Assembly: GCF_036088315.1 (NCBI RefSeq)
Contig: NZ_CP107996.1
Location: 6,623,001 to 6,687,000 of the forward strand
Direction: 5' to 3'
DNA: 64,000 bases
Source of the DNA: Streptomyces sp. NBC_00344
Lineage (GTDB): Bacteria > Actinomycetota > Actinomycetes > Streptomycetales > Streptomycetaceae
Position 1 is the stretch's first letter. Each line of letters begins with the position of its first letter. A program made the position numbers and the translations under genes. Positions 12,827-24,672 of this stretch are shown piece after piece. The notes beneath the pieces were generated by a model. That model was not told the DNA's origin, searched no databases, and saw only the letters and a program-made list of their open reading frames with translations.

Positions 12827-13537
12827 CTACCAGGGGAGGGTGCCTTCGGCGTCGAAGTAGCCCCCGGTGGGGCCGTCGGAGCCGGCCCGCGCCATGCGGA
12901 CGATGATCTCGGCGCCCTGCTCGACGGTCTGGATGCCGGTGTTCCCGTTCAGGTCCGTCTTGGTGAAGCCGGGCTCCACCGCGTTGATCCGCATGCTCGG
13001 GAACGCCTTCGCGTACTGCACGGTGATCATGTTGACCGCGGCCTTGGAGGCGGGGTAGGCGACGCCGGGGTAGGCGTACGCCGGGGTGTCCGGGGTGCTG
13101 ACGCGGGTCAGCGAAGCCAGGCCGCTGCTGACGTTGACCACGACCGGGGCGCTGGACCGCTGCAGTAGCGGGAGAAACGCGCGCGTGACGCGCACCATGC
13201 CGAAGACGTTCGTCTCGAAGGTCCTCCGCATCAGATCGGCGGTCACGTCCGCCGGGCCGATCACCCCGTTGTCGTCGCTCCTCTCCGTTTCGATGCCCGC
13301 GTTGTTGATCAGTACGTCAAGCCCTCCACCGGCCTCGATCGTCTTCACCGCCGCAGCCACGGAAGCGTCGTCGGTGACGTCGAGCTGGACCACCCGTGCG
13401 CCCAGTTGCCCGGCGGCCCGGCGGCCGCGTTCTGTATCCCGGCTCCCGATGTAGACGGTGTGGCCCGCGGCCATGAGCCGCCGGGCGGTCTCGAAACCGA
13501 GACCCTTGTTCGCTCCGGTGATCAGTGTTGCTGTCAT
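12827..13537 (-). CDS. Short-chain dehydrogenase/reductase
   Basis: A 236-residue classical SDR. The coenzyme site TGANKGLG is at residues 7-14, NNAG near 78-81, catalytic Ser138 in NVSSGLAS, and the Tyr161-x3-Lys165 pair in YPASK. The acidic ending of beta-strand 2 is replaced by GSRD, which favours NADPH. The substrate is unknown. It is divergent from the XRE-MmyB regulator across 101 bp holding a near-perfect palindrome, so regulator and enzyme form the common Streptomyces pair in which the regulator controls the SDR. Confidence 0.92.
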   Translation of the reverse strand: MTATLITGANKGLGFETARRLMAAGHTVYIGSRDTERGRRAAGQLGARVVQLDVTDDASVAAAVKTIEAGGGLDVLINNAGIETERSDDNGVIGPADVTADLMRRTFETNVFGMVRVTRAFLPLLQRSSAPVVVNVSSGLASLTRVSTPDTPAYAYPGVAYPASKAAVNMITVQYAKAFPSMRINAVEPGFTKTDLNGNTGIQTVEQGAEIIVRMARAGSDGPTGGYFDAEGTLPW

Positions 13538-13581
13538 GCCTCCACGGTCCGGTGAAACCGCCCGGTCAGCCAGTCGTCCCG

Positions 13582-13610
13582 TCTTCCTGGGACTGTCAGT
13601 ACCAGGAAGA
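13582..13610. promoter_or_regulatory. 29-bp near-perfect palindromic operator
   Basis: Arms TCTTCCTGG (13582-13590) and CCAGGAAGA (13602-13610) surround a second inverted repeat ACTG-T-CAGT. Only one position pair (13591/13601) breaks the symmetry. It lies between the divergent SDR and XRE-MmyB genes, 29 bp before the regulator start, and is the probable binding site of that regulator. Confidence 0.75.
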
Positions 13611-13638
13611 GCCGGGCAACGCGGTGCACAGTGGTGTC

Positions 13639-14469
13639 ATGGCGATCACTGAGTTCGGGCACACGGTGCGGCGCTGGCGCGACCGGGCTTCCCCCGCGGC
13701 GGCCGGGCTGCCCGTCGGCGGCCACCGGCGCGCGACCGGGTTGCGCCGTGAGGAGCTCGCGCTGCTGGCCGGGATCTCGGTGGACTACGTCACCCGCCTT
13801 GAACAGGGCCGGGCGACCAACCCGTCGGAACAGGTCGTGGAAGCTCTGGGACGGGCTCTCCGCCTTTCCGGCGCCGAGCGCGAGCATCTGTTCAACGCCG
13901 CAGGGCTGGTGCCGCCGGGGCAGGGCACCGTGCCCGCCTACATCACGCCGAGCGTGCAGCGGATGCTGGACCGGCTGACCGGGACGCCGGTCGCGGTCTC
14001 CGACGCGGCGTGGACATTGCTGCTGGCCAACCCGCTGTACACGGCACTGATGGGGGAGCGGCGCGGCAAGGAGCGCAACGCGGTGTGGCGCAACTTTCTG
14101 GGCTCGGGCAGCCGCGTCCGCCACACACCGCAGTCCCAGCGCGCCCTGGAGGCCGCGCAGGTCGCCACTCTGCGTGCGACGACGAGCCGGTATCCGGCCG
14201 ACCAGCGGTTGCTGCGCCTGGTCGCGGAGCTGCGCGCCAACAGCGACCGGTTCGCCCAACTGTGGGAATCCAGAGCGGTGGGCGGGCACGAGGCGTCGCT
14301 CAAGACCGTCGATCACCCGCAGGTGGGTCCTCTGACGCTGGACTGTGACGTGCTCAGCGTCGCCGGCAGCGACCTGCGCATCATGATCTACACGGCCGAG
14401 CCCGGAACCGATGACGCCGAACGGCTTGCGCTCCTCTCCGTCATCGGCACCCAGACACTCGTCGGGTAG
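13639..14469 (+). CDS. XRE-family regulator with MmyB-like ligand domain
   Basis: A 276-residue regulator. The N-terminal helix-turn-helix (about 10-85) has the family pattern GLRREELALLAGISVDY and RLEQGRATNPS. The C-terminal two-thirds match the MmyB-like PAS-related domain, with DAAWTLLLANPLYTALMG, LWESRAVGGHEASLKTVDHP and IMIYTAEPGTDDAERLALLS. Such proteins typically bind fatty-acid-like ligands and control an adjacent SDR, which is divergent here. The ATG at 13639 begins the conserved helix-turn-helix; the frame is open upstream but would cover the operator. Confidence 0.92.
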   Translation: MAITEFGHTVRRWRDRASPAAAGLPVGGHRRATGLRREELALLAGISVDYVTRLEQGRATNPSEQVVEALGRALRLSGAEREHLFNAAGLVPPGQGTVPAYITPSVQRMLDRLTGTPVAVSDAAWTLLLANPLYTALMGERRGKERNAVWRNFLGSGSRVRHTPQSQRALEAAQVATLRATTSRYPADQRLLRLVAELRANSDRFAQLWESRAVGGHEASLKTVDHPQVGPLTLDCDVLSVAGSDLRIMIYTAEPGTDDAERLALLSVIGTQTLVG

Positions 14470-14855: not shown

Positions 14856-16220
14856 GTGACAGCCTTCGCCCCCATTCTCTTCGTCTACGCCAAGGGCGGC
14901 CCGCCGCTGGCGTATGCGATACCCCGGATCGCCGCGCACGCCCAGGTGCACGTGCTGGCGCTCGCGCCACTGCCGGAGGCGACGGCGGACACGTGGTGGC
15001 CGCGCTGCGAGACGGTCACCGAGGCGCAGCCGGTGGAGGGGGACGACCTGGTGGACCTGATCTGCCGTCACGCGCGCATCGTGGGGGCCCGCGCCGTGAT
15101 GACGCTGTCGGAGTACGCCGTCGTCGCCGTCGCCCACGCCGGCCGCCGCCTCGGCCTGGCGGGTGTCGGCCCCAATGTCGAGGCGGCGCGCGACAAGCGC
15201 CAGATGCGCAGCCGCTGGCACGAGGCCGGCGTACCGGTCCCGGGCTTCGCGCCGGTGGACCGCGCCGCCGACATCACCGAGGCCTTCGCCCGACTGCGGC
15301 CGCCACTGCTGCTGAAGGCGGCGTGGAGCGCCGGTTCCACCGCGCACGTCCGCGTGCGCGACGAAGCGCAGGCCGAACGTGCCTGGCAGCTCGGCCGCAG
15401 CGTGATGGCCGACTCCGCCGCCCAGGGGTACGCCGAACTGCACTCCGTCCACGGTGGTGTGAGTGACTTCCTGCTCGAGGAGATCGTCACCGGCGACGCG
15501 TCAGCCTGGTTCGAGGGCGAGGGCTGGGGTGACTACGTGAGTGTCGAGGGCATCGTCGCGGACGGTGTCTACCACCCCCTGTGCATCAACGGCCGCATGC
15601 CCACGATCCCTCCGTTCACGGAGAGGGCTGGCCTCGCCCCGGTCGCCCTGCCCGCGGAGGCCCAGCGCCGCATCGAGGAGGTCTCCCGGCAGGCCGTCGA
15701 CGCGCTGCAGCTGGAGAACTGCGCCACACACACCGAGATCAAGCTCGGCGCGGACGGCGAGATGTGGGTGATCGAGACGGCGGCCCGCTTCGGCGGTGTC
15801 ATGACGACCCGTCAGGTCGAGACGGTCTACGGTCTGGACATGCTCGGCATGCTGGTGCGCCAACTGCTCGGGGAGAAGGTCGACTACCCGGAACGGATGC
15901 TCACCCGGGGCGAGGGCGCCGCAGGCTCTCTCGTGATCCTTGCCGCCGATGCCGAGGGCCGCCCGTGGAGTGAACTGCCGCCGTGGGACTTCGACGCCGT
16001 CGACTGGCCGGCGCTCCTCGGTGACGGCTCGCACATCGAGCTGGTCCGCGAGGCCAGCCTGCCGCCCGGCACCCCGATGCCCGCCTACGAGGAGGCAGGC
16101 GGCGCCAACGCGATGGCCGCGCTCTGCTTCGTGACGGCCGCCTCGGAGCAGGAGCTGATCGCAGACTGCGAGAACGTCGTCGCCGCTCTGCCGCAGCACC
16201 TCACGGGGAAGCGCGCATGA
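14856..16220 (+). CDS. ATP-grasp carboxylate-amine ligase
   Basis: A 454-residue predicted ATP-dependent ligase. The N-terminal ~110 residues form the pre-ATP-grasp domain. Lys154 in LLLKAAWSAGS is the nucleotide-binding lysine, LLEEIVTG (about 206) the adenine-binding strand, and THTEIKL (about 291) with IETAARFGG (306-314) carries the Mg/ATP Glu and Arg. This pattern is seen in L-amino-acid ligases of the BacD/carnosine synthase type, which activate a carboxylate as acyl phosphate and join it to an amine; the substrates here are unknown. The GTG at 14856 follows AGGAGAGCC. It overlaps the next gene by 4 bp (ATGA). Confidence 0.88.
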   Translation: MTAFAPILFVYAKGGPPLAYAIPRIAAHAQVHVLALAPLPEATADTWWPRCETVTEAQPVEGDDLVDLICRHARIVGARAVMTLSEYAVVAVAHAGRRLGLAGVGPNVEAARDKRQMRSRWHEAGVPVPGFAPVDRAADITEAFARLRPPLLLKAAWSAGSTAHVRVRDEAQAERAWQLGRSVMADSAAQGYAELHSVHGGVSDFLLEEIVTGDASAWFEGEGWGDYVSVEGIVADGVYHPLCINGRMPTIPPFTERAGLAPVALPAEAQRRIEEVSRQAVDALQLENCATHTEIKLGADGEMWVIETAARFGGVMTTRQVETVYGLDMLGMLVRQLLGEKVDYPERMLTRGEGAAGSLVILAADAEGRPWSELPPWDFDAVDWPALLGDGSHIELVREASLPPGTPMPAYEEAGGANAMAALCFVTAASEQELIADCENVVAALPQHLTGKRA

Positions 16221-18223
16221 CCGCCCCGGCACAGACTCCGGCCGGTGAGCACCGGCACGGTGCGGTCGTCGGCGGCCTGCTCACCCTTCCGCTGTTCGAG
16301 CAGCTGAGCGGCGTCCTCGGTGGCCATCCCTACGTCAAGGTCGTCGTGGACCGCCAAGAGCGCACCTGGCACGTGCTGGACAGCTCGGTGCACTCCTTCC
16401 ATGTCAACTACGTGGCCACGTGCATCGAGGGCCTCACTCTCGAAGAGCTCGATGCCGACCTCGACGGCTTCAACCACAGCGTCTACCACGCCCCGGACCG
16501 CCGCTTCCTGCTCGGTGTGCTCTCCCTGCACTCCGGCACGGCCACACCGCAGGACGCCCCGCAGCCGTTCATGGTGCTGGAGACCACCGAGGCCGACACG
16601 ATGAACGGCGCGGTGCTCACCGAGTTCCACGCCTTCGTCCGTGCCCATCTGGACTCCTCCCTCGCCCTGGTGGTCAAGCCGGCCAACCACGGGCAGGAGC
16701 AGGCTGTCGCGGCGATCCCGGAATCCGTCATGCCGCGGGCGCAGGGCCACGAGCTGCTGTCCACCGCCCCGTTCGTACCGCTGACCCTCGGTTCGGCCGA
16801 CGGCCGGCTGCGCTGTTTCGCGAGCGATGAGGAGTACCGCGCCGCCCGCGAGGATCTGGCCTGGTACGACATCGTCGCGATGCCCGTCGTCCCCGACGAC
16901 ATCCCGCGCCTGGCCGGCCTGGTCAACGCCCTACCGACCACTCCGCTTTCACACACCAACATGCTCGCCGCAGGCTGGGGCGTACCGAACGCCATCGTGC
17001 GCGGTGTCCTCGAACGGATCACCGCCGATGAGCTGAACGGCTCCTGGGTCCGCTACGAGGTGACCACCGAGGGCGCGAGGCTGGAGCGCGCCGAGCAGCC
17101 TGACGACCTGGCCGAACCTGTCTGGCACACCCAGCGCATACGCCTCGACGCCCCCAGGGTGAAGGATCTGCCGATACTGCCGCTGCCGGAGCTGCGTGCC
17201 GGCGACCGGCACGGTTACGGCACCAAGGCGGCCAACCTGGGCGAACTGCACCACGTGCTGCGGCACGGCTCTCCGCGGCTGCCCGGCTACTACGCCGTAC
17301 CACGCCCGCCCCGCCGCAACCTCCTCGGCCACCTGGCAGCCCGGCTCGAGGTGCCCGAGGGCACCGAAGCAGCCGAAGCCGCAGGCGACTTCCTCACCCG
17401 TCACGTCACGGGCCCCGACGGCATCGCGCTGCCCTTCGCCCTGCAGCAGCGCTTCCTGAACGGCTCGCCCGCCATCCAGCAGAGCATCGGCAAGCTGAAG
17501 ATGGCTCTGGAACTCGACGCGATGGACGTCATCGACACCGTCTGCGTGCAGCTCCAGCATCTGGTGCGCACCACGCCCGTGCCCGACGACATCGCCCGCA
17601 CCATCGACACCCACCTCGTCAAACACCTCGCGGGTGCCACCAGGTTCGCGGTCCGCTCCTCCTCCAACGCGGAGGATCTGGCCGGCTTCTCCGCCGCCGG
17701 GATCTACGAGTCGCACACGCAGGTCACCGACCTGCCCGGCGTGCTGGACGCCGTACGGCAGGTGTGGGCGTCGCTCTGCTCCCCGCGCAGCGTACGGCTG
17801 CGCCACCAGGCCGGCATCTCGCTGGACGACACCTACATGGGCGTCATCGTGCAGCGCTTCGAACCCTCCCCGCTCGGCGGTGTGATGGTCACGTGCAACC
17901 CGACCAACCGGGCCGACTTCCGCAACGTCTATCTGAACTGCGCCCACGGCTCGACGGCAGCCGTGGTCGACGGCACCACGCTGCCCATGCAGTACCTGTA
18001 CAACACGGTCGAGGGCGGGGGCCGCACGCTGTCCCTGGGCGCCGCCGAGCACGACCTCGACGCTGACACCCGGGCCCGGCTCGCGCGACTCGCCCTCGCG
18101 GGACGACTGCTGCAGTCACATTTCGCGACGGACTACACCTTCGCCGCGCCGCTCGACATCGAGTGGCTGCTCACCGCCGACGGCAACCTGCACATCCTGC
18201 AGCTCCGGCCCTACTCGGCCTGA
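16217..18223 (+). CDS. PEP/pyruvate-binding dikinase-like protein with swapped domain order
   Basis: A 668-residue protein in three parts. Residues 1-220 are of unknown fold. A swivelling phosphohistidine-type domain (about 220-300) has a candidate His246 in TPLSHTNMLAAGWGVPN. An ATP-grasp domain of the PPDK_N type (about 330-668) has GTKAANLGEL near 335, VRSSSNAEDLAGFS near 479-492 and the end HILQLRP. There is no C-terminal TIM barrel for PEP or pyruvate, so it is not a normal PEP synthase. The His-then-ATP-grasp order recalls glucan water dikinase. I infer phosphate transfer from ATP through His246 to a substrate bound by the N-terminal part. Coupled to the ligase by ATGA. Confidence 0.82.
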   Translation: MTAPAQTPAGEHRHGAVVGGLLTLPLFEQLSGVLGGHPYVKVVVDRQERTWHVLDSSVHSFHVNYVATCIEGLTLEELDADLDGFNHSVYHAPDRRFLLGVLSLHSGTATPQDAPQPFMVLETTEADTMNGAVLTEFHAFVRAHLDSSLALVVKPANHGQEQAVAAIPESVMPRAQGHELLSTAPFVPLTLGSADGRLRCFASDEEYRAAREDLAWYDIVAMPVVPDDIPRLAGLVNALPTTPLSHTNMLAAGWGVPNAIVRGVLERITADELNGSWVRYEVTTEGARLERAEQPDDLAEPVWHTQRIRLDAPRVKDLPILPLPELRAGDRHGYGTKAANLGELHHVLRHGSPRLPGYYAVPRPPRRNLLGHLAARLEVPEGTEAAEAAGDFLTRHVTGPDGIALPFALQQRFLNGSPAIQQSIGKLKMALELDAMDVIDTVCVQLQHLVRTTPVPDDIARTIDTHLVKHLAGATRFAVRSSSNAEDLAGFSAAGIYESHTQVTDLPGVLDAVRQVWASLCSPRSVRLRHQAGISLDDTYMGVIVQRFEPSPLGGVMVTCNPTNRADFRNVYLNCAHGSTAAVVDGTTLPMQYLYNTVEGGGRTLSLGAAEHDLDADTRARLARLALAGRLLQSHFATDYTFAAPLDIEWLLTADGNLHILQLRPYSA

Positions 18224-18246
18224 CACCTCCACCCGCGACCCGGGGA

Positions 18247-18283
18247 GGCCCCGGCACCCGCACCCCCGTGCGCTGCCGGGGCC
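18247..18283 (+). terminator. Hairpin between the dikinase-like and MFS genes
   Basis: GGCCCCGGCA (18247-18256) pairs with TGCCGGGGCC (18274-18283), with an inner GCAC/GTGC stem. It starts 23 bp after the dikinase stop and may be a terminator or a partial terminator that lowers expression of the exporter gene. Confidence 0.55.
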
Positions 18284-18325
18284 CCACCCAACCCTGCCCT
18301 CCGCCCGCTTTGACGAAGGCGCACC

Positions 18326-19606
18326 ATGCCCACACCCCTGTCCCTGCTCAGGCGCTCACAGCCCAAGCGCCGCACCGTGCTCCCCCCGCTCGCCCGCCGT
18401 ATCGTCCGGCTCAACAACGGCTTCCAGCTGCTGTTCAACCTGCTGTGGTGGATGCCCGTCTTCTACGAGTACCAGCGGCAGGCCGGGCTCAGCGACAGCC
18501 AGATCTTCGGCATCCAGAGCGTCTACTACGTGGCGTTCTGCCTGCTGGAGATACCCACCGGCCTCGTCGCCGACCGGATCGGGCAGCGCCGCTGCATGCA
18601 GCTGGGCGCTGCCGTCATGACGGCAGCCAACCTCGTCCCCGTAGCAGCCCCCACCGCCACCGGCTTCCTCCTCCACTTCCTCGCCATCGCCACGGCCCGC
18701 TCACTCGTTTCCGGCGCCTCAAGCGCCTACCTGTACGAGTCACTGCACGCGCACGACGCCGGCGACCACTACGTGCAGGCCGAAGGCACCGCGCGGGCTC
18801 TCGGACTGTGGGCGAAGATCGCCTGCTGGCCGCTGGTCGGTGTCCTCATGCAGCTCGCGCACTCGGCGCCGTACGTGCTGACTGCCGTCAGCGCCGCCGG
18901 CTCGCTGGTCTGCGCCATGGCGCTGCCGCCCGTCCCGCCCCATCTGGCCCCGGCGTCCCGGGTGCCCGCAGCCGAACGCGCCGGGCTGTGGACGTCCCTG
19001 AAGCAGACCGCGTCGGTGCTGCGCACATCCAAACCGCTCGGCCCGCTGATGGTGCAGGGCGTGGCGCTCTTCACCCTCGCCCGCATCTGCCAGGTCAACC
19101 TGTTCCAGCCGCTTCTGCTCGCCAAGGCCGTCCCGGTCGCCGAACACGGCGCCGTGCTCTCCGCGATGACGGTCGCGGAGGCGGTCGGCTCCTCCCGCCC
19201 CTCCTGGGTGCGCTCCCGGCTCTCCGACACCGCCGCCGTCACTGTGCTCAGCCTCGTCATGGCCTTCTCGCTGGCCGCGACCACCGCGAGCGGCGGCGCG
19301 GGAACGATCGGCTGGCTGTGCGTGTTCGCCGCCGCGACCGGCCTGGCTTTCCCCGTCCAGCGACACCTCATCAACGCGGCGATACCGACGACCCCGTACC
19401 GCACCACGCTGCTGTCACTGGAGTCCATCATCGACCGCGGGGTCTGCGCCCTGGTCGCGCTTGCCGTCGGCGCATGTCTTGCCGCCAACCGGTTGGACAC
19501 GCTGCTCATCAGCGCGGCCCTGGGAACCTGCCTGCTGCTCGGTATCGTCAGTCTGGCTCTGCGCCTGCTGCGCCGTGGACCCACATCGGCCGAGGCCGGC
19601 CTCTGA
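18326..19606 (+). CDS. MFS transporter, probable exporter of the cassette
   Basis: A 426-residue major facilitator with about 12 helices. After a basic N-terminus, LNNGFQLLFNLLWWMPVF begins helix 1 and the loop 2-3 signature is LVADRIGQRR (about 84-93). RLSDTAAVTV near 300 starts the second half. It belongs to the small-molecule efflux group rather than DHA2 (14 helices). It lies 102 bp after the dikinase gene on the same strand, separated by a hairpin, and is the natural candidate to export the cassette product. It converges with the PAS-LuxR gene 12 bp downstream. Confidence 0.9.
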   Translation: MPTPLSLLRRSQPKRRTVLPPLARRIVRLNNGFQLLFNLLWWMPVFYEYQRQAGLSDSQIFGIQSVYYVAFCLLEIPTGLVADRIGQRRCMQLGAAVMTAANLVPVAAPTATGFLLHFLAIATARSLVSGASSAYLYESLHAHDAGDHYVQAEGTARALGLWAKIACWPLVGVLMQLAHSAPYVLTAVSAAGSLVCAMALPPVPPHLAPASRVPAAERAGLWTSLKQTASVLRTSKPLGPLMVQGVALFTLARICQVNLFQPLLLAKAVPVAEHGAVLSAMTVAEAVGSSRPSWVRSRLSDTAAVTVLSLVMAFSLAATTASGGAGTIGWLCVFAAATGLAFPVQRHLINAAIPTTPYRTTLLSLESIIDRGVCALVALAVGACLAANRLDTLLISAALGTCLLLGIVSLALRLLRRGPTSAEAGL

Positions 19607-19618
19607 CGGAGCAGGGCA

Positions 19619-20617
19619 TCACCGGTCGAAGGGCACGGCGGTCGCCCGCGGCGGCCACGTCGTGGGGTCCAGAATTCCCGTGGCATAGGCGCGCGCGACC
19701 ATCGCGGGCCGTGAGTCGGCGTCCAGCACGGTCCGCAGACGTCGCAGGTGGTAGTCCAGCGCCTGTCGCGAAAGACCGAGTGCCTTGGCGACGGCTGTGT
19801 TCGGCTCGCCGCCCGCCATCAGCGTCAGCACCCGGAGCTGCGTCGGCGTGATCCGCGGACGGGCCGGTGTTTCCGCGCCTATCGGCTTCAGGACGGCCAG
19901 CACCCGGTCCGGCACGCCCGAACGCTGCACCAACGCCAGGTCGGTGCGCACGATCCGGGTGGTGCCGAGCGCCGTGCGTACCGCCACCATCCCGGCACGG
20001 CGCGCGACCCGGCCCGCGACGAGCGACCCCCACGACCCGACCAGCGCGGCCGCGTCCAGCCCTTCGCCCAGATGCGCCACCGCCTCGCTGCCCTCCAGCG
20101 CCGGCGGGCTCCATCCGACCAACTCCGCCGCGCCCGTGTTGGCGCGCCGCACGCGGCCGTCCAGGTCCAGTGTCACGACCGCGAGCCCGGCCCGCTCCCG
20201 CAGCGCGTGCAACTCCTCCTGCGCGGCGTCGTTTTCCGCCTGCGCACGGGCGTGTCCGGTCACGTCGACGTAGATGCCGCCGACCCGCGGGCCCCGATGG
20301 CCGTCCAGCGCGAACCGGTGGCCTATGGCCTTCCCCTGAGAGCCGTCGGCCTGCACGAACGTGATCACATGCCGGACGGGCTTCCTCGACTCGAGTACCT
20401 CCCGGTCCAGCGCCCGCGCAGTAGTGGCGTCGGCGGACGGGTCGACCTCCTCGACGACGCGGCCCATCATCTCGCGCGGCGACCGGTGATAGAGATGCGC
20501 GTAGGCGGCGTTGACCCAGAGATAGCGGCCGTGGGTGTCCCGTATGAATGCTGCGGCGGGTGAGAAGGAGGCCAACGCCTCGAACCACTGCGCTGCCTCA
20601 CCGCTTTCGCCGTCCAC
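19619..20617 (-). CDS. PAS-domain LuxR-type transcriptional regulator
   Basis: A 332-residue regulator. Residues about 10-130 form a PAS domain (FSPAAAFIRDTHGRYLWVN and the PAC-like YVDVTGHARAQAEN); a second PAS-like stretch (about 135-180) has VVTLDLDGRVRRANTGAAEL. The C-terminal LuxR helix-turn-helix (about 265-330) reads TPTQLRVLTLMAGGEPNTAV. PAS-LuxR proteins include pathway-specific activators such as PimM. Position next to the ATP-grasp cassette suggests it controls it, but this is inference. GTG 20617, preceded by GAAGGGAAG, is chosen; the open frame upstream lacks domain similarity. Confidence 0.85.
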   Translation of the reverse strand: MDGESGEAAQWFEALASFSPAAAFIRDTHGRYLWVNAAYAHLYHRSPREMMGRVVEEVDPSADATTARALDREVLESRKPVRHVITFVQADGSQGKAIGHRFALDGHRGPRVGGIYVDVTGHARAQAENDAAQEELHALRERAGLAVVTLDLDGRVRRANTGAAELVGWSPPALEGSEAVAHLGEGLDAAALVGSWGSLVAGRVARRAGMVAVRTALGTTRIVRTDLALVQRSGVPDRVLAVLKPIGAETPARPRITPTQLRVLTLMAGGEPNTAVAKALGLSRQALDYHLRRLRTVLDADSRPAMVARAYATGILDPTTWPPRATAVPFDR

Positions 20618-20829: not shown

Positions 20830-23800
20830 TTACTCGAGGCCGTAGGCGTTCAGCACCGTCTGGGTGACGGTGTTGCCCGCGCTGTCCTTTGCGGTGGCGC
20901 GCAGTGATACGTAAGCAGCGGACTTCGGTGCCTTCACCGTGGAGGTCCAGGAGCCGTTCGCCTGGCGTCTGAGAGTGAGGGGAACCCAGCTCGATCCGTC
21001 GTCGAAGGACACCTTGAGGGTGGCCGCGCTGATCCGGCCGGCGCCGGTGACCCCGGCGAGGTGCGAGGCGGTCAGCGACAGCGGGGTGGTGCGCTTCGCC
21101 TTGCCGGAGAGGCTGGTGGCGACGCCGTAGTCGAGCTGGATGAGCGGCAGGTCGACGTATCCGTTGCCGGAGGTGAAGCCCCATTCGGTGCGGGTGGCCG
21201 GCGAGTACGGCAGGACGCCGCTCTGGCTGGTCTCGGCGACCAACTGGTAACGCAGCGGCGCCGGACCGGGTGCGGTGGCCGTGAGTTGCTGATAGAGCGT
21301 CGAGCCGAGCTCGGTGCTGCCCTGACGGAGTGAGACCTTCTCGTGCAGCATGTCCTCGTCCCCCCACAGGTTCTGGTCGAAGCCGTTGTGCCCGGAACCT
21401 GAGTCGCCCCAGCCCGGGACGTTGAGGACGAAGAAGTCGCCCTGCCGGTCGGGCAGCGACTGGCTCTCGTTCAGCCGGGGATGGAAGACGGACAGGAACC
21501 AGTCGCTCCTGGTCCTGGAGCCCTTCGCCGGTGTGGTGACCAGCGACCGCTCCTGCACGGCGGGGTTGTCGGATTCCTCGTACCAGCCGAACTTCGTGCC
21601 GCCCGGGGTGACCCAGTCGGTACGGGTGGTACCGAGCGTCTGGGCCGTCTGGTAGCCGACGCCGTACCGGTCGAAGTCCTGCATGTCGTAGCGTCCGTTG
21701 TCACCGGAGTCGGTGGCCTTGCCGGCGAACCGGGAGTCGATCCTGGCCAGGTCGGCGGTCTTCGGGGTATAGGTCAGGTCGGCATCGGGGATGGCGCCGT
21801 CGTGTCGTTCGACGAGGTCGTAGGCGTACGGTGACGTGGGCGTCGAGGCCAGGTCGAGGACCAGACCGGGGTGACCGGCGGCCGCGATCAGTGAGGTGCC
21901 CTGGGCAGCCTGCAGGCCGGCCACCTCGATGGGACCGGTGGTCTCGAAATCGTCGGCGCCGTACCAGCTGGAAAGCCGGCCGACGGTGTCGTTGACGACC
22001 AGCAGCAGCTTGGCCCCGGCAGCGGCCGCGGCGGCAGCCTGGGCGGTGTCCGTGGCCGACTGGGCGGCCGGGTCGGCCTGCCGGTCGTAACGGACCACCA
22101 CGGCTTTGCCCTTGGCGTCCAGGCCCGCGTAGTCGGCAGTGGTACCGGCGCCGGCGTACACGACGGGGAGCTTGCGGCGTCCGGCCGGCAGGAGGGCGGA
22201 ACCGGCCTGGACGAGCAGGCTCGACATGTCCACCGCCGGAAGGTGCGGGCGAAGGGCGGTTGCGGTCAGTGTCGGAGCGCTCTTGCGCCAGCGTGTGTCG
22301 AAAGCGAAGCTGCCGCTGGTCACCTTGGCGGTGGACTGTGCCCAGACGCTGGTGTAGGCGGCCGGCAGGAGGAAGTTCGCGTTGAAGGTGCCGCCGCCCG
22401 CAACCCGGTTCCATTCGACCCGGGTCAGCCGGTCCTCAGCCCGGTGCGGGGCGACGGAGGAAACGCGGTGAGCGTTGCGGGCGTCGAGCGCCGCCGTGCG
22501 GTCGCGGTCCAACCGCACCTGGGGCACGGACAGCACACCGAGCCCGAGGTCGTCGGGTCCGGCCGCACCCGGCAGGTCGGCGTACATCAGCACCGAGTAC
22601 TCACCCTTGGGCAGGCGCAGGGTGAGCCTGCCGCCGGCAGGGATCTCCACCGGAGAGGGATCCGCGTCTCCGGTTCGGTAGATCACCGCTGTGCCCGGAA
22701 TCCCCGCGCCGGTGCGGTCGCCTGTGGTGATGGTGAGGTTGTACCGCTCGTCCTCGCGGTCCAGACCGATGAGAGTGTGGGAGAGGACGGTGCCGTCGGT
22801 GGCGGTCGCCTCCACCTGGCCGTCGGTGGCACCGTACGGCGCCTTGGCCGGGTCTGCGGTGACGGTCACCGATGCGGCGCCGCCGGCCGGCACGGTGACG
22901 CCCGACATGGACAGTGCGAACGCTCCCGAGGCGTCGGAGCCGTCGGTGCCGGTGGCCGTGGCCCTCAGCCGCAGCCTGACGTCGGAGCCGCCGGTATTGG
23001 AGTAGGTGACGGTCTTGACCGTGGGCTGGTCAGCGGTGTGCGGCCACGGGTAGAAACCGGCCCAGGCGGTGGCTGAGGCGTGCACGGTGCCCAGGACTGC
23101 GGCCTTGGCGTCCAGCCTGCCGCTGCCGCCCTTGGTCACCGGGATGCCGGGGGTCTCGTGCGCGGTGCTGACCAGGGCGTCCTTGATCTGCTGGCCGGTC
23201 CAGTCCGTGTGTCGCTCAGCGAGGAGGGCGGCCGCGCCGGCAACGTGCGGCGTAGCCATCGAGGTGCCGCTGAGCGTGAGGTAAGGGCCCGAGCCTTCGG
23301 TGGAGTACTGCGAGCGGGCAGCGAGGATGTCCACGCCGGGCGCGGTGATCTCGGGCTTGAGGCCGCCGTCGAGGTAGCGCGGGCCCCAGCTCGAGAAGTC
23401 GGCGAGCTGGTCGGTGGAGTCGACCGCGCCCACGGTGAGCGCCGAGGTGGCCGCACCGGGGGCGCCGATGCCGCCCGGGCCTGAGTTGCCGGCTGCGATG
23501 ACGAACAGGGCGCCGGTGGCGTCGCTGAGTTCGTTGACGGCCTGGCTCATCGGGTCGGAACCGTCGCTGGGCCCGGTCGAGCCCAGACTCATGTTGACGA
23601 CCTTGGCATGCCTGGTCTGGGCTGCCCACTGCATGCCGGCGATGATCCAGGACTCGTCGCCGTAGCCGTCGTTGCCCAGCACCTTGCCGACCAGGAGACG
23701 GGCGCCCGGGGCGACACCCTTCTCCTTGCCGTCGGATGCGGCGCCGGTGCCGGCGATCGTGGAGGCGGTGTGGGTGCCGTGGCCGTTGCGGTCGGTGACG

Positions 23801-24672
23801 TCCTGACCCGGCACGAAGCTCTGCGACGCGGCCATCTGGCCGTTGAGGTCGGGGTGTTCCGCGTCGATGCCCGGGTCGAGGATGGCAACGTCCACCCCCT
23901 TGCCGTCGGTGCCGGACTGCCACACGCCGGGGGCGCCGATCTGGGAGGTGCTGTCGGCGAGGGCCGACGTGACCTTGCCGTCGAGCCAGATGTGGCTGAT
24001 GTTCGCGCCGAAGACGGCCGCCCCGCCACCGGCGCCCTTCACCTGCGCCGGAAGGCCGGCCCCTGTCTGTCGCAGCGCGGCACGCGCCTTGGCCCGGCCG
24101 AGGGCATCGGCGGGAGCGACCTCCTGCCAGAACGCCGCCGCTCCGGCACGGTTTTCGCTGACCGCCCGGCCGTGCACGGCCGGCAGATCGAGGCGGTCGG
24201 ACAGCCCCTTGGGAATGGCGTCCGCAGTGCGCGCCTTCGCGTCGCCGTACTGGACGATCAGCGGTAGCTTGCTCGAACGGGCGTCGTCGTAGCCGTCCTT
24301 GATCAGGGCCGTGACATCGAAAAGACGCCGGTCGAGCACGCCCGCTGCGAGGTAGGGCAGGACCTCGGTCGGGTAGACGTACAGATCCTTGCCGACGGTC
24401 TGGGTCTGTACGCCGCCCGTGAGGTTCGCGGGGCGTTCGACGGTGGCCGTCGAGCGGCCGTCGGCCAGGGCGGTGACGGTGACCCGGTCACCTGTGACGA
24501 GCGTGACGGTCCTGGGGGCGCCAAAGGACGCGCCGGCGGAGATCGTCCCGGACGGTGGGGCGGGGGTGCCCTGAGAGGCGGTGGCCTGTGCGATCGACGG
24601 GGTGGCGGCTATCGCGGCGAGGACTGTACCCACGGCGACCAGAGCACGCCGACGCCTGACTGAGGATCTCAA
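20830..24672 (-). CDS. Large secreted S8 (subtilisin-like) serine peptidase
   Basis: A 1280-residue secreted protease. The signal peptide covers residues 1-32 and the propeptide extends to about 235. The catalytic domain has Asp266 (VAILDPGID), His298 (NGHGTHTAS), oxyanion Asn396 (AAGNSGPG) and Ser471 (SGTSMATPHVAG). The usual Thr or Ser after the catalytic Asp is Pro. Beyond about 540 come beta-rich domains, a PA-like region (AAGAKLLLVVNDTVGRLSSW), and a C-terminal Ig-like end. It probably degrades extracellular protein. The TTG start at 24672 has GGAGG seven bases before it. The regulator gene 200 bp upstream may control it. Confidence 0.92.
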   Translation of the reverse strand: MRSSVRRRRALVAVGTVLAAIAATPSIAQATASQGTPAPPSGTISAGASFGAPRTVTLVTGDRVTVTALADGRSTATVERPANLTGGVQTQTVGKDLYVYPTEVLPYLAAGVLDRRLFDVTALIKDGYDDARSSKLPLIVQYGDAKARTADAIPKGLSDRLDLPAVHGRAVSENRAGAAAFWQEVAPADALGRAKARAALRQTGAGLPAQVKGAGGGAAVFGANISHIWLDGKVTSALADSTSQIGAPGVWQSGTDGKGVDVAILDPGIDAEHPDLNGQMAASQSFVPGQDVTDRNGHGTHTASTIAGTGAASDGKEKGVAPGARLLVGKVLGNDGYGDESWIIAGMQWAAQTRHAKVVNMSLGSTGPSDGSDPMSQAVNELSDATGALFVIAAGNSGPGGIGAPGAATSALTVGAVDSTDQLADFSSWGPRYLDGGLKPEITAPGVDILAARSQYSTEGSGPYLTLSGTSMATPHVAGAAALLAERHTDWTGQQIKDALVSTAHETPGIPVTKGGSGRLDAKAAVLGTVHASATAWAGFYPWPHTADQPTVKTVTYSNTGGSDVRLRLRATATGTDGSDASGAFALSMSGVTVPAGGAASVTVTADPAKAPYGATDGQVEATATDGTVLSHTLIGLDREDERYNLTITTGDRTGAGIPGTAVIYRTGDADPSPVEIPAGGRLTLRLPKGEYSVLMYADLPGAAGPDDLGLGVLSVPQVRLDRDRTAALDARNAHRVSSVAPHRAEDRLTRVEWNRVAGGGTFNANFLLPAAYTSVWAQSTAKVTSGSFAFDTRWRKSAPTLTATALRPHLPAVDMSSLLVQAGSALLPAGRRKLPVVYAGAGTTADYAGLDAKGKAVVVRYDRQADPAAQSATDTAQAAAAAAAGAKLLLVVNDTVGRLSSWYGADDFETTGPIEVAGLQAAQGTSLIAAAGHPGLVLDLASTPTSPYAYDLVERHDGAIPDADLTYTPKTADLARIDSRFAGKATDSGDNGRYDMQDFDRYGVGYQTAQTLGTTRTDWVTPGGTKFGWYEESDNPAVQERSLVTTPAKGSRTRSDWFLSVFHPRLNESQSLPDRQGDFFVLNVPGWGDSGSGHNGFDQNLWGDEDMLHEKVSLRQGSTELGSTLYQQLTATAPGPAPLRYQLVAETSQSGVLPYSPATRTEWGFTSGNGYVDLPLIQLDYGVATSLSGKAKRTTPLSLTASHLAGVTGAGRISAATLKVSFDDGSSWVPLTLRRQANGSWTSTVKAPKSAAYVSLRATAKDSAGNTVTQTVLNAYGLE

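Follow-up and report, generated by a model that had tools for sequence, protein, structure and literature searches.

A conserved ligase, dikinase, exporter and regulator cassette in Streptomycetaceae and a candidate pathway to a phosphorylated dipeptide-like compound

The four-gene cassette

The window, a 64,000-nucleotide stretch of DNA, covers positions 6623001-6687000 of contig C1 in the 7.06 Mb genome of Streptomyces sp. NBC_00344, and the system in question is a set of four open reading frames (ORFs) that occupies positions 14856-20617 of this window. Three ORFs lie on the + strand and encode a predicted ATP-grasp ligase of the BacD L-amino-acid ligase type (454 aa, 14856-16220), a three-domain protein with a PPDK_N match, here called the dikinase (668 aa, 16217-18223), and a major facilitator superfamily (MFS) transporter (426 aa, 18326-19606). 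The fourth, on the opposite strand, encodes a PAS-PAS-LuxR regulator with two PAS domains and a GerE domain (332 aa, 19619-20617). In a Pfam scan the ligase matched ATP-grasp_4 above the cut-off, the PPDK_N match of the dikinase (E 1.2e-35) was confined to residues 396-666, and the MFS_1 match was barely above the cut-off. The regulator as listed begins at an internal GTG and its start is uncertain because the frame remains open up to position 21367; a gene caller picked the same 19619-20617 frame.

The four genes form a real, conserved cassette, and this conservation excludes a chance arrangement. Loci were picked by the dikinase alone, using a scan of genome contigs that gave 98 confirmed relatives, of which the best 80 were kept. 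Among these 80 loci, tblastn with the window's proteins detected the ligase in 79, the MFS transporter in all 80 and the regulator in 76, with partial matches for ligase, MFS and regulator in one locus (L083) and for MFS in another (L088). The sole locus without a ligase match, L099, comes from a Bacteriovoracaceae metagenome-assembled genome. ORF clustering across 79 Streptomycetaceae loci placed the dikinase in 79, the MFS in 77, the ligase in 76 and the regulator in 74; as the next family, a HAD-fold protein, is present in 22 and no other exceeds 11, the shared cassette is taken to consist of four genes. No family beyond these four, and hence no phosphoenolpyruvate (PEP) mutase, is common to the 79 loci, although no search aimed at a PEP mutase was made in the flanks or the genome.

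A preliminary description of this DNA had read the two enzyme genes as translationally coupled and had made their adjacency in other genomes a point to be checked. At 16217-16220 (+) the stop codon of the ligase and the start codon of the dikinase share an ATGA, the same -4 spacing recurs in 75 of the 77 called pairs (the window included), and in Streptomycetaceae the two genes nearly always lie side by side. Fusions of the dikinase with an ATP-grasp_4 domain occur in three of the 120 dikinase homologues listed. The convergent orientation of the regulator, also part of that description, holds in the near clade, in which the gene lies 3' of the others, and not in the far clade (~60% identity), in which it is upstream and divergent. 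Pairwise distances of the four proteins correlate at 0.92-0.97 over 72 loci and at 0.86-0.95 within the far clade, the species tree not being controlled for.

Locus L202 (genome G692) shows the order dikinase-MFS-ligase with overlapping ends, has no regulator or HAD match nearby and adjoins a transposase fragment. In the window itself, a large subtilase-family (S8) protease gene (20830-24633, -) adjoins the cassette and is not among the families common to the loci, and an MmyB-like XRE regulator gene just 5' of it (13525-14469, +) has a match in one of the 80 loci (L065).

The ligase and the dikinase

Sequence comparison assigns the ligase an ATP-grasp fold with a full catalytic core, and its nearest solved relative is BacD, which matches over the ATP-grasp core (residues 63-352, E 1e-44). 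E294 is conserved in at least 97% of the family and E307 and R311 in all 77 members; all three align to BacD, and we take E294 and E307 to be metal-binding glutamates and R311 to be the substrate arginine. The preliminary description had noted a site pattern of amino-acid ligases. At the position of BacD Trp332, a numbering that rests on an inferred two-residue offset of the PDB chain, 67 of the 77 ligases carry Ala and 10 carry Val (V315 in the window's ligase). Because this residue is Ala or Val, the enzyme is best classed, by its sequence, as BacD-like and not as BacD itself, for which the NCBIfam model gives it 167 bits at a cut-off of 850. It does not resemble an enzyme of primary metabolism. 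In a review, Trp332 is named as a key substrate-pocket residue and BacD is described as limited to smaller first residues (PMC6920838). Given this role of Trp332 and its replacement by Ala or Val, the ligase may accept a larger first residue than BacD, and dipeptide formation is its predicted reaction.

The dikinase, with an N-domain, a swivel domain carrying H246 and a C-terminal ATP-grasp domain that ends the protein, is by its predicted architecture not a PEP synthase. The N-domain (aa 1-182, 16217-16762), a putative acceptor-substrate domain, gave no convincing match in a fold search. The predicted phosphohistidine swivel (aa ~183-295, 16763-17101) contains the motif TPLSHTN, whose H246 (16952-16954) is invariant among the homologues, and the ATP-grasp (PPDK_N) domain (aa ~316-668, 17162-18220) was assigned from domain and fold matches. 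Among solved structures, rifampin phosphotransferase (RPH) comes closest to both the ATP-grasp and the swivel domain. An RPH-like small-molecule dikinase is expected to combine an ATP-grasp domain with a phosphohistidine swivel bearing an invariant His, and both are present; the swivel thus lends strength to the earlier suggestion that the partner of the ligase is a phosphotransferase.

Two closer identities fit less well. For a PEP synthase or pyruvate phosphate dikinase (PPDK), the C-terminal PEP/pyruvate-binding domain was not found and the ATP-grasp domain follows the swivel instead. For RPH, the domain order of ATP-grasp, substrate and swivel domain does not apply, and an RPH-type rifampin (RIF)-binding substrate domain was not detected in the dikinase, whose N-domain is uncharacterised. 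Database entries name the cassette genes 'PEP synthase', which is common for dikinase homologues, and 'ATP-grasp protein', and rule-based cluster finders may miss the cassette because of such names. A further PPDK_N-type match is found in the same genome (C1:223525-224364), in a 957-aa frame with 29% identity over query residues 395-666.

Distribution and a HAD-fold candidate partner

Across the phylum, a dikinase match of E 1e-60 or better was obtained in 3 of 296 genomes, which all come from the window's genus and include the window's own genome. Among 295 Streptomyces genomes the dikinase is present in 33, about one in nine of those sampled, and the ligase in 36, which cover all 33 dikinase genomes. 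The possibility, raised in the preliminary description, that the ligase is an orthologue of a primary-metabolism enzyme finds no support in this accessory distribution, nor in its closest resemblance, which is to BacD. The cassette is also present on two Streptomyces plasmids of ~0.55 Mb. Additional copies of the ligase gene (44-49% identity) occur in three dikinase-less genomes and as a second copy in a fourth, and are sited in other candidate clusters. One such locus, L199, encodes two PALP proteins, an O-methyltransferase, a TauD oxygenase, an HpcH aldolase, an AraC regulator and an MFS protein; L198 and L199 form a candidate cluster type with several ATP-grasp ligases and possibly a separate ATP-grasp pathway (domain scan for L199 only). 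In L200 the ligase paralogue adjoins an asparagine-synthase-like gene, a methyltransferase and an MFS gene, and L201 looks similar, judged by gene sizes alone.

The phylum of L099, which was placed in the Bacteriovoracaceae, is Bdellovibrionota, and here the dikinase was found in 26 of 290 genomes. The 21 loci examined were L099 and 20 of the 25 other dikinase loci. An MFS family member is present in 19 of them. The dikinase was called in 19 loci, and in 17 of these the next gene 3' encodes the MFS transporter. Neither the regulator family nor the ligase family was found in any of the 21 loci; a search of the whole L099 genome for the ligase also gave no match, although this search had no positive control. 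Since these loci combine the dikinase and MFS genes and lack the ligase, a dikinase-MFS core can exist without it. In seven of the genomic regions (L132, L136, L137, L138, L139, L140 and L143) an H+-translocating pyrophosphatase family, read by eye, lies near the pair, which may be ordinary synteny.

The HAD-fold protein has a signal-peptide-like N-terminus and is encoded directly 3' of the MFS gene, in convergent orientation, in 21 of the 79 Streptomycetaceae loci and further off in one more; in Bdellovibrionota it is a separate gene in 6 of the 21 loci. The window's own genome encodes a homologue, also with a signal-like leader, ~54 kb beyond the window (C1:6741439-6742077, L205:8443-9081) that is 68% identical to the query from L055 and is an unlinked partner candidate of the cassette. 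An adjoining HAD gene with 66% identity to this homologue is present on one of the two cassette plasmids. Among the first 61 genomes HAD was found in 4, all within the 6 that have a full-length dikinase. In the 295 Streptomyces genomes it was detected in 25 at E 1e-15, of which 23 have the dikinase (hypergeometric 2.5e-24), and in Bdellovibrionota in 23 at E 1e-8, of which 13 have the dikinase (6e-10), although these p-values ignore shared ancestry and are to that extent a point against the proposed partnership. Of the 23 Streptomyces genomes with both genes, 13 have them within 6 kb, 5 far apart on one contig and 5 on different contigs, with linkage across contig ends not excluded for the last group. 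The 'compact' system of the preliminary description therefore stands as regards the four conserved genes and is likely incomplete, because a likely fifth gene is often encoded away from the cassette.

Residues were counted in 50 HAD loci with ORFs selected by BLAST. D61, presumably the Asp nucleophile, is conserved in 49, K149, presumably the motif III Lys, in all 50, and E172, presumably the acidic residue of motif IV, in 49. A hydrophobic leader precedes motif I in 47 of 49 HAD ORFs, one frame being too short for scoring. In loci L150, L153, L154, L156 and L159 one TGA was counted within the match or frame, probably a match overrunning a stop or the frame end. The best 120 of 271 homologues listed carry no precomputed Pfam domain, and most of the named ones are called hypothetical protein. 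At one Bdellovibrionota locus (L145:4272-6035, -) the dikinase is immediately followed by one 587-aa frame without interruption, which comprises an MFS part (residues 2-384, 37% identity to the window's MFS) and a HAD part (residues 394-584, 43% identity to the HAD of L144) with a hydrophobic stretch between them, and this is possibly a natural MFS-HAD fusion that links export and the HAD step.

Proposed pathway, alternatives and known systems

We consider it about an even call that the cassette, independently of a nonribosomal peptide synthetase (NRPS), directs dipeptide ligation, intracellular phosphorylation, MFS export and extracellular dephosphorylation by the HAD-fold protein. The ATP-grasp protein would join two amino acids or amino-acid-like acids, as its homology to BacD suggests. 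Next, the dikinase would move the beta-phosphate of ATP onto H246, which would swing to an acceptor bound at the N-domain, yielding a phosphorylated product, AMP and Pi; the ATP site and the swivel His are assigned by sequence and fold, the chemistry is borrowed from RPH and the acceptor is conjectural. The MFS transporter may then export the phosphorylated, inactive form, and a HAD-fold phosphatase, predicted to be secreted and encoded beside the cassette or elsewhere, would strip the phosphate outside, a reaction suggested by the observed co-occurrence and signal-like N-terminus. From its linkage, the PAS-LuxR protein probably regulates the set. Dikinase, exporter and HAD protein may represent a separable module, also found in Bdellovibrionota, to which the ligase would have been added in Streptomycetaceae. 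Phosphorylation for self-protection had already been suggested in the preliminary description; it is favoured by the co-occurring HAD protein with its signal-peptide-like N-terminus. The ligase product would be the substrate of the dikinase in this scheme.

More tentatively, and with confidence clearly short of even, we hypothesize that these loci represent an undescribed, widespread class, independent of NRPS, polyketide synthases (PKS) and ribosomally synthesized and post-translationally modified peptides (RiPPs), in which a phosphorylated dipeptide-like pro-compound is made via a new dikinase architecture, exported and activated outside by a secreted HAD protein, often encoded in trans. Its dikinase-exporter-HAD core would be common to Streptomyces and Bdellovibrionota, with exporter and HAD in one protein at one locus. 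Searches of the open-licence literature showed no description of the cassette.

Several observations weigh against the proposed pathway. A PDB sequence search with the swivel gave no match, and neither did a Pfam search with the window's own swivel segment. The one Streptomyces HAD member scanned had no Pfam match and the HAD protein of the window's genome had no NCBIfam or PDB match, while the residue two positions after the nucleophile is Gly, not Asp, in 49 of 50 HAD proteins. The specificity of the leader measure is limited, as on the first 60 aa it is also positive for 27 of 77 ligases, 8 of 99 dikinases and 1 of 76 regulators. In Streptomyces, no HAD match at E 1e-15 was obtained for 10 of the 33 genomes with the dikinase, and 2 of the 25 HAD genomes lack the dikinase; the corresponding numbers in Bdellovibrionota are 13 of 26 and 10 of 23. 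The MFS-HAD fusion was seen once, in a draft genome, and with no ligase family at the Bdellovibrionota loci, the dikinase may use another substrate.

Finally, the dikinase might instead be a second ligase, like PigC-type enzymes. In PigC/RedH-like logic, phosphorylation proceeds through a His and condensation releases the phosphate. The dikinase would then phosphorylate a carboxylate or carbonyl via H246, and the product would be non-phosphorylated and tripeptide-like or condensed. Its ATP-grasp domain does match the PigC and RedH models (E 1.1e-16 and 3e-18, respectively), and a dipeptide ligase with a further bond-forming enzyme at its side is known from the ATP-grasp pathway of the phosphonoalamides, in which PnaC is followed by PnaB (PMC11867202). 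However, this domain scores better against the RPH and PEP-synthase models, a second amine-donor domain is not evident, the N-domain being uncharacterised, and the co-occurring predicted phosphatase would be left unexplained; we consider this reading unlikely. Rather less probable still is a resistance or detoxification cassette that phosphorylates foreign compounds in an RPH-like manner, or amidates them, and then pumps them out. The relationship of the ATP-grasp and swivel domains to RPH, the adjoining MFS gene and a patchy spread that includes two large plasmids would suit such a role, whereas the missing RPH substrate-binding domain, the different domain order and the resemblance of the ligase to a dipeptide-forming enzyme would not, and a secreted phosphatase partner would undo the detoxification. 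Least probable is a phosphorylated dipeptide or amino acid that serves as a signal or nutrient store sensed via the PAS-LuxR protein and not as an antibiotic, for although the regulator is nearly always linked (76 of 80 loci), the gene set very small and its core shared with Bdellovibrionota, the 21 loci examined in that phylum showed no member of the regulator family and there is no evidence for a regulator ligand.

If the proposed pathway is correct, about one-ninth of the sampled Streptomyces would make a phosphorylated small molecule with two enzymes, small-molecule dikinases would gain a further domain arrangement, actinomycetes and Bdellovibrionota would be linked via a common core, and a logic of phosphorylating inside and removing the phosphate outside could be tested with five genes.

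The individual components resemble known systems to different degrees. BacD (YwfE), the alanine-anticapsin ligase of bacilysin, has the ATP-grasp core, the catalytic acidic residues and the Arg in common with the cassette ligase and differs from it in Trp332, which affects substrate choice and is replaced by Ala or Val in all 77 cassette enzymes, and in its NCBIfam model, whose cut-off these do not approach in the window's case. PEP synthase and PPDK also contain ATP-grasp and swivel domains, which are permuted in the cassette dikinase, where the pyruvate/PEP-binding domain was not found. In alpha-glucan water dikinase (GWD), a much larger enzyme that acts on starch, the swivel precedes the C-terminal nucleotide-binding domain, as in the cassette dikinase, a likeness of domain order. 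The phosphohistidine of GWD is given as His992 (PMC12892837), and the domain order of RPH is given as ATP-grasp, RIF-domain and swivel (PMC4844700), in contrast to N-domain, swivel and ATP-grasp here. HpeHI is described as a two-component phenolic dikinase with a catabolic function (PMC12167813). Unlike the cassette dikinase, it is split over two proteins and has a catabolic role. In the phaseolotoxin cluster, too, an amino-acid ligase occurs together with a PPDK-like protein, PhtL. According to an abstract, that cluster has 23 genes, phtL among those named, versus four here. An inactive phosphorylated precursor, as proposed here, is likewise part of streptomycin self-protection, the enzymes and the product being unrelated. 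Streptomycin biosynthesis includes a secreted phosphatase step. The phosphorylated precursor made by the streptomycin producer is described as inactive streptomycin-6-phosphate (PMC6283892).
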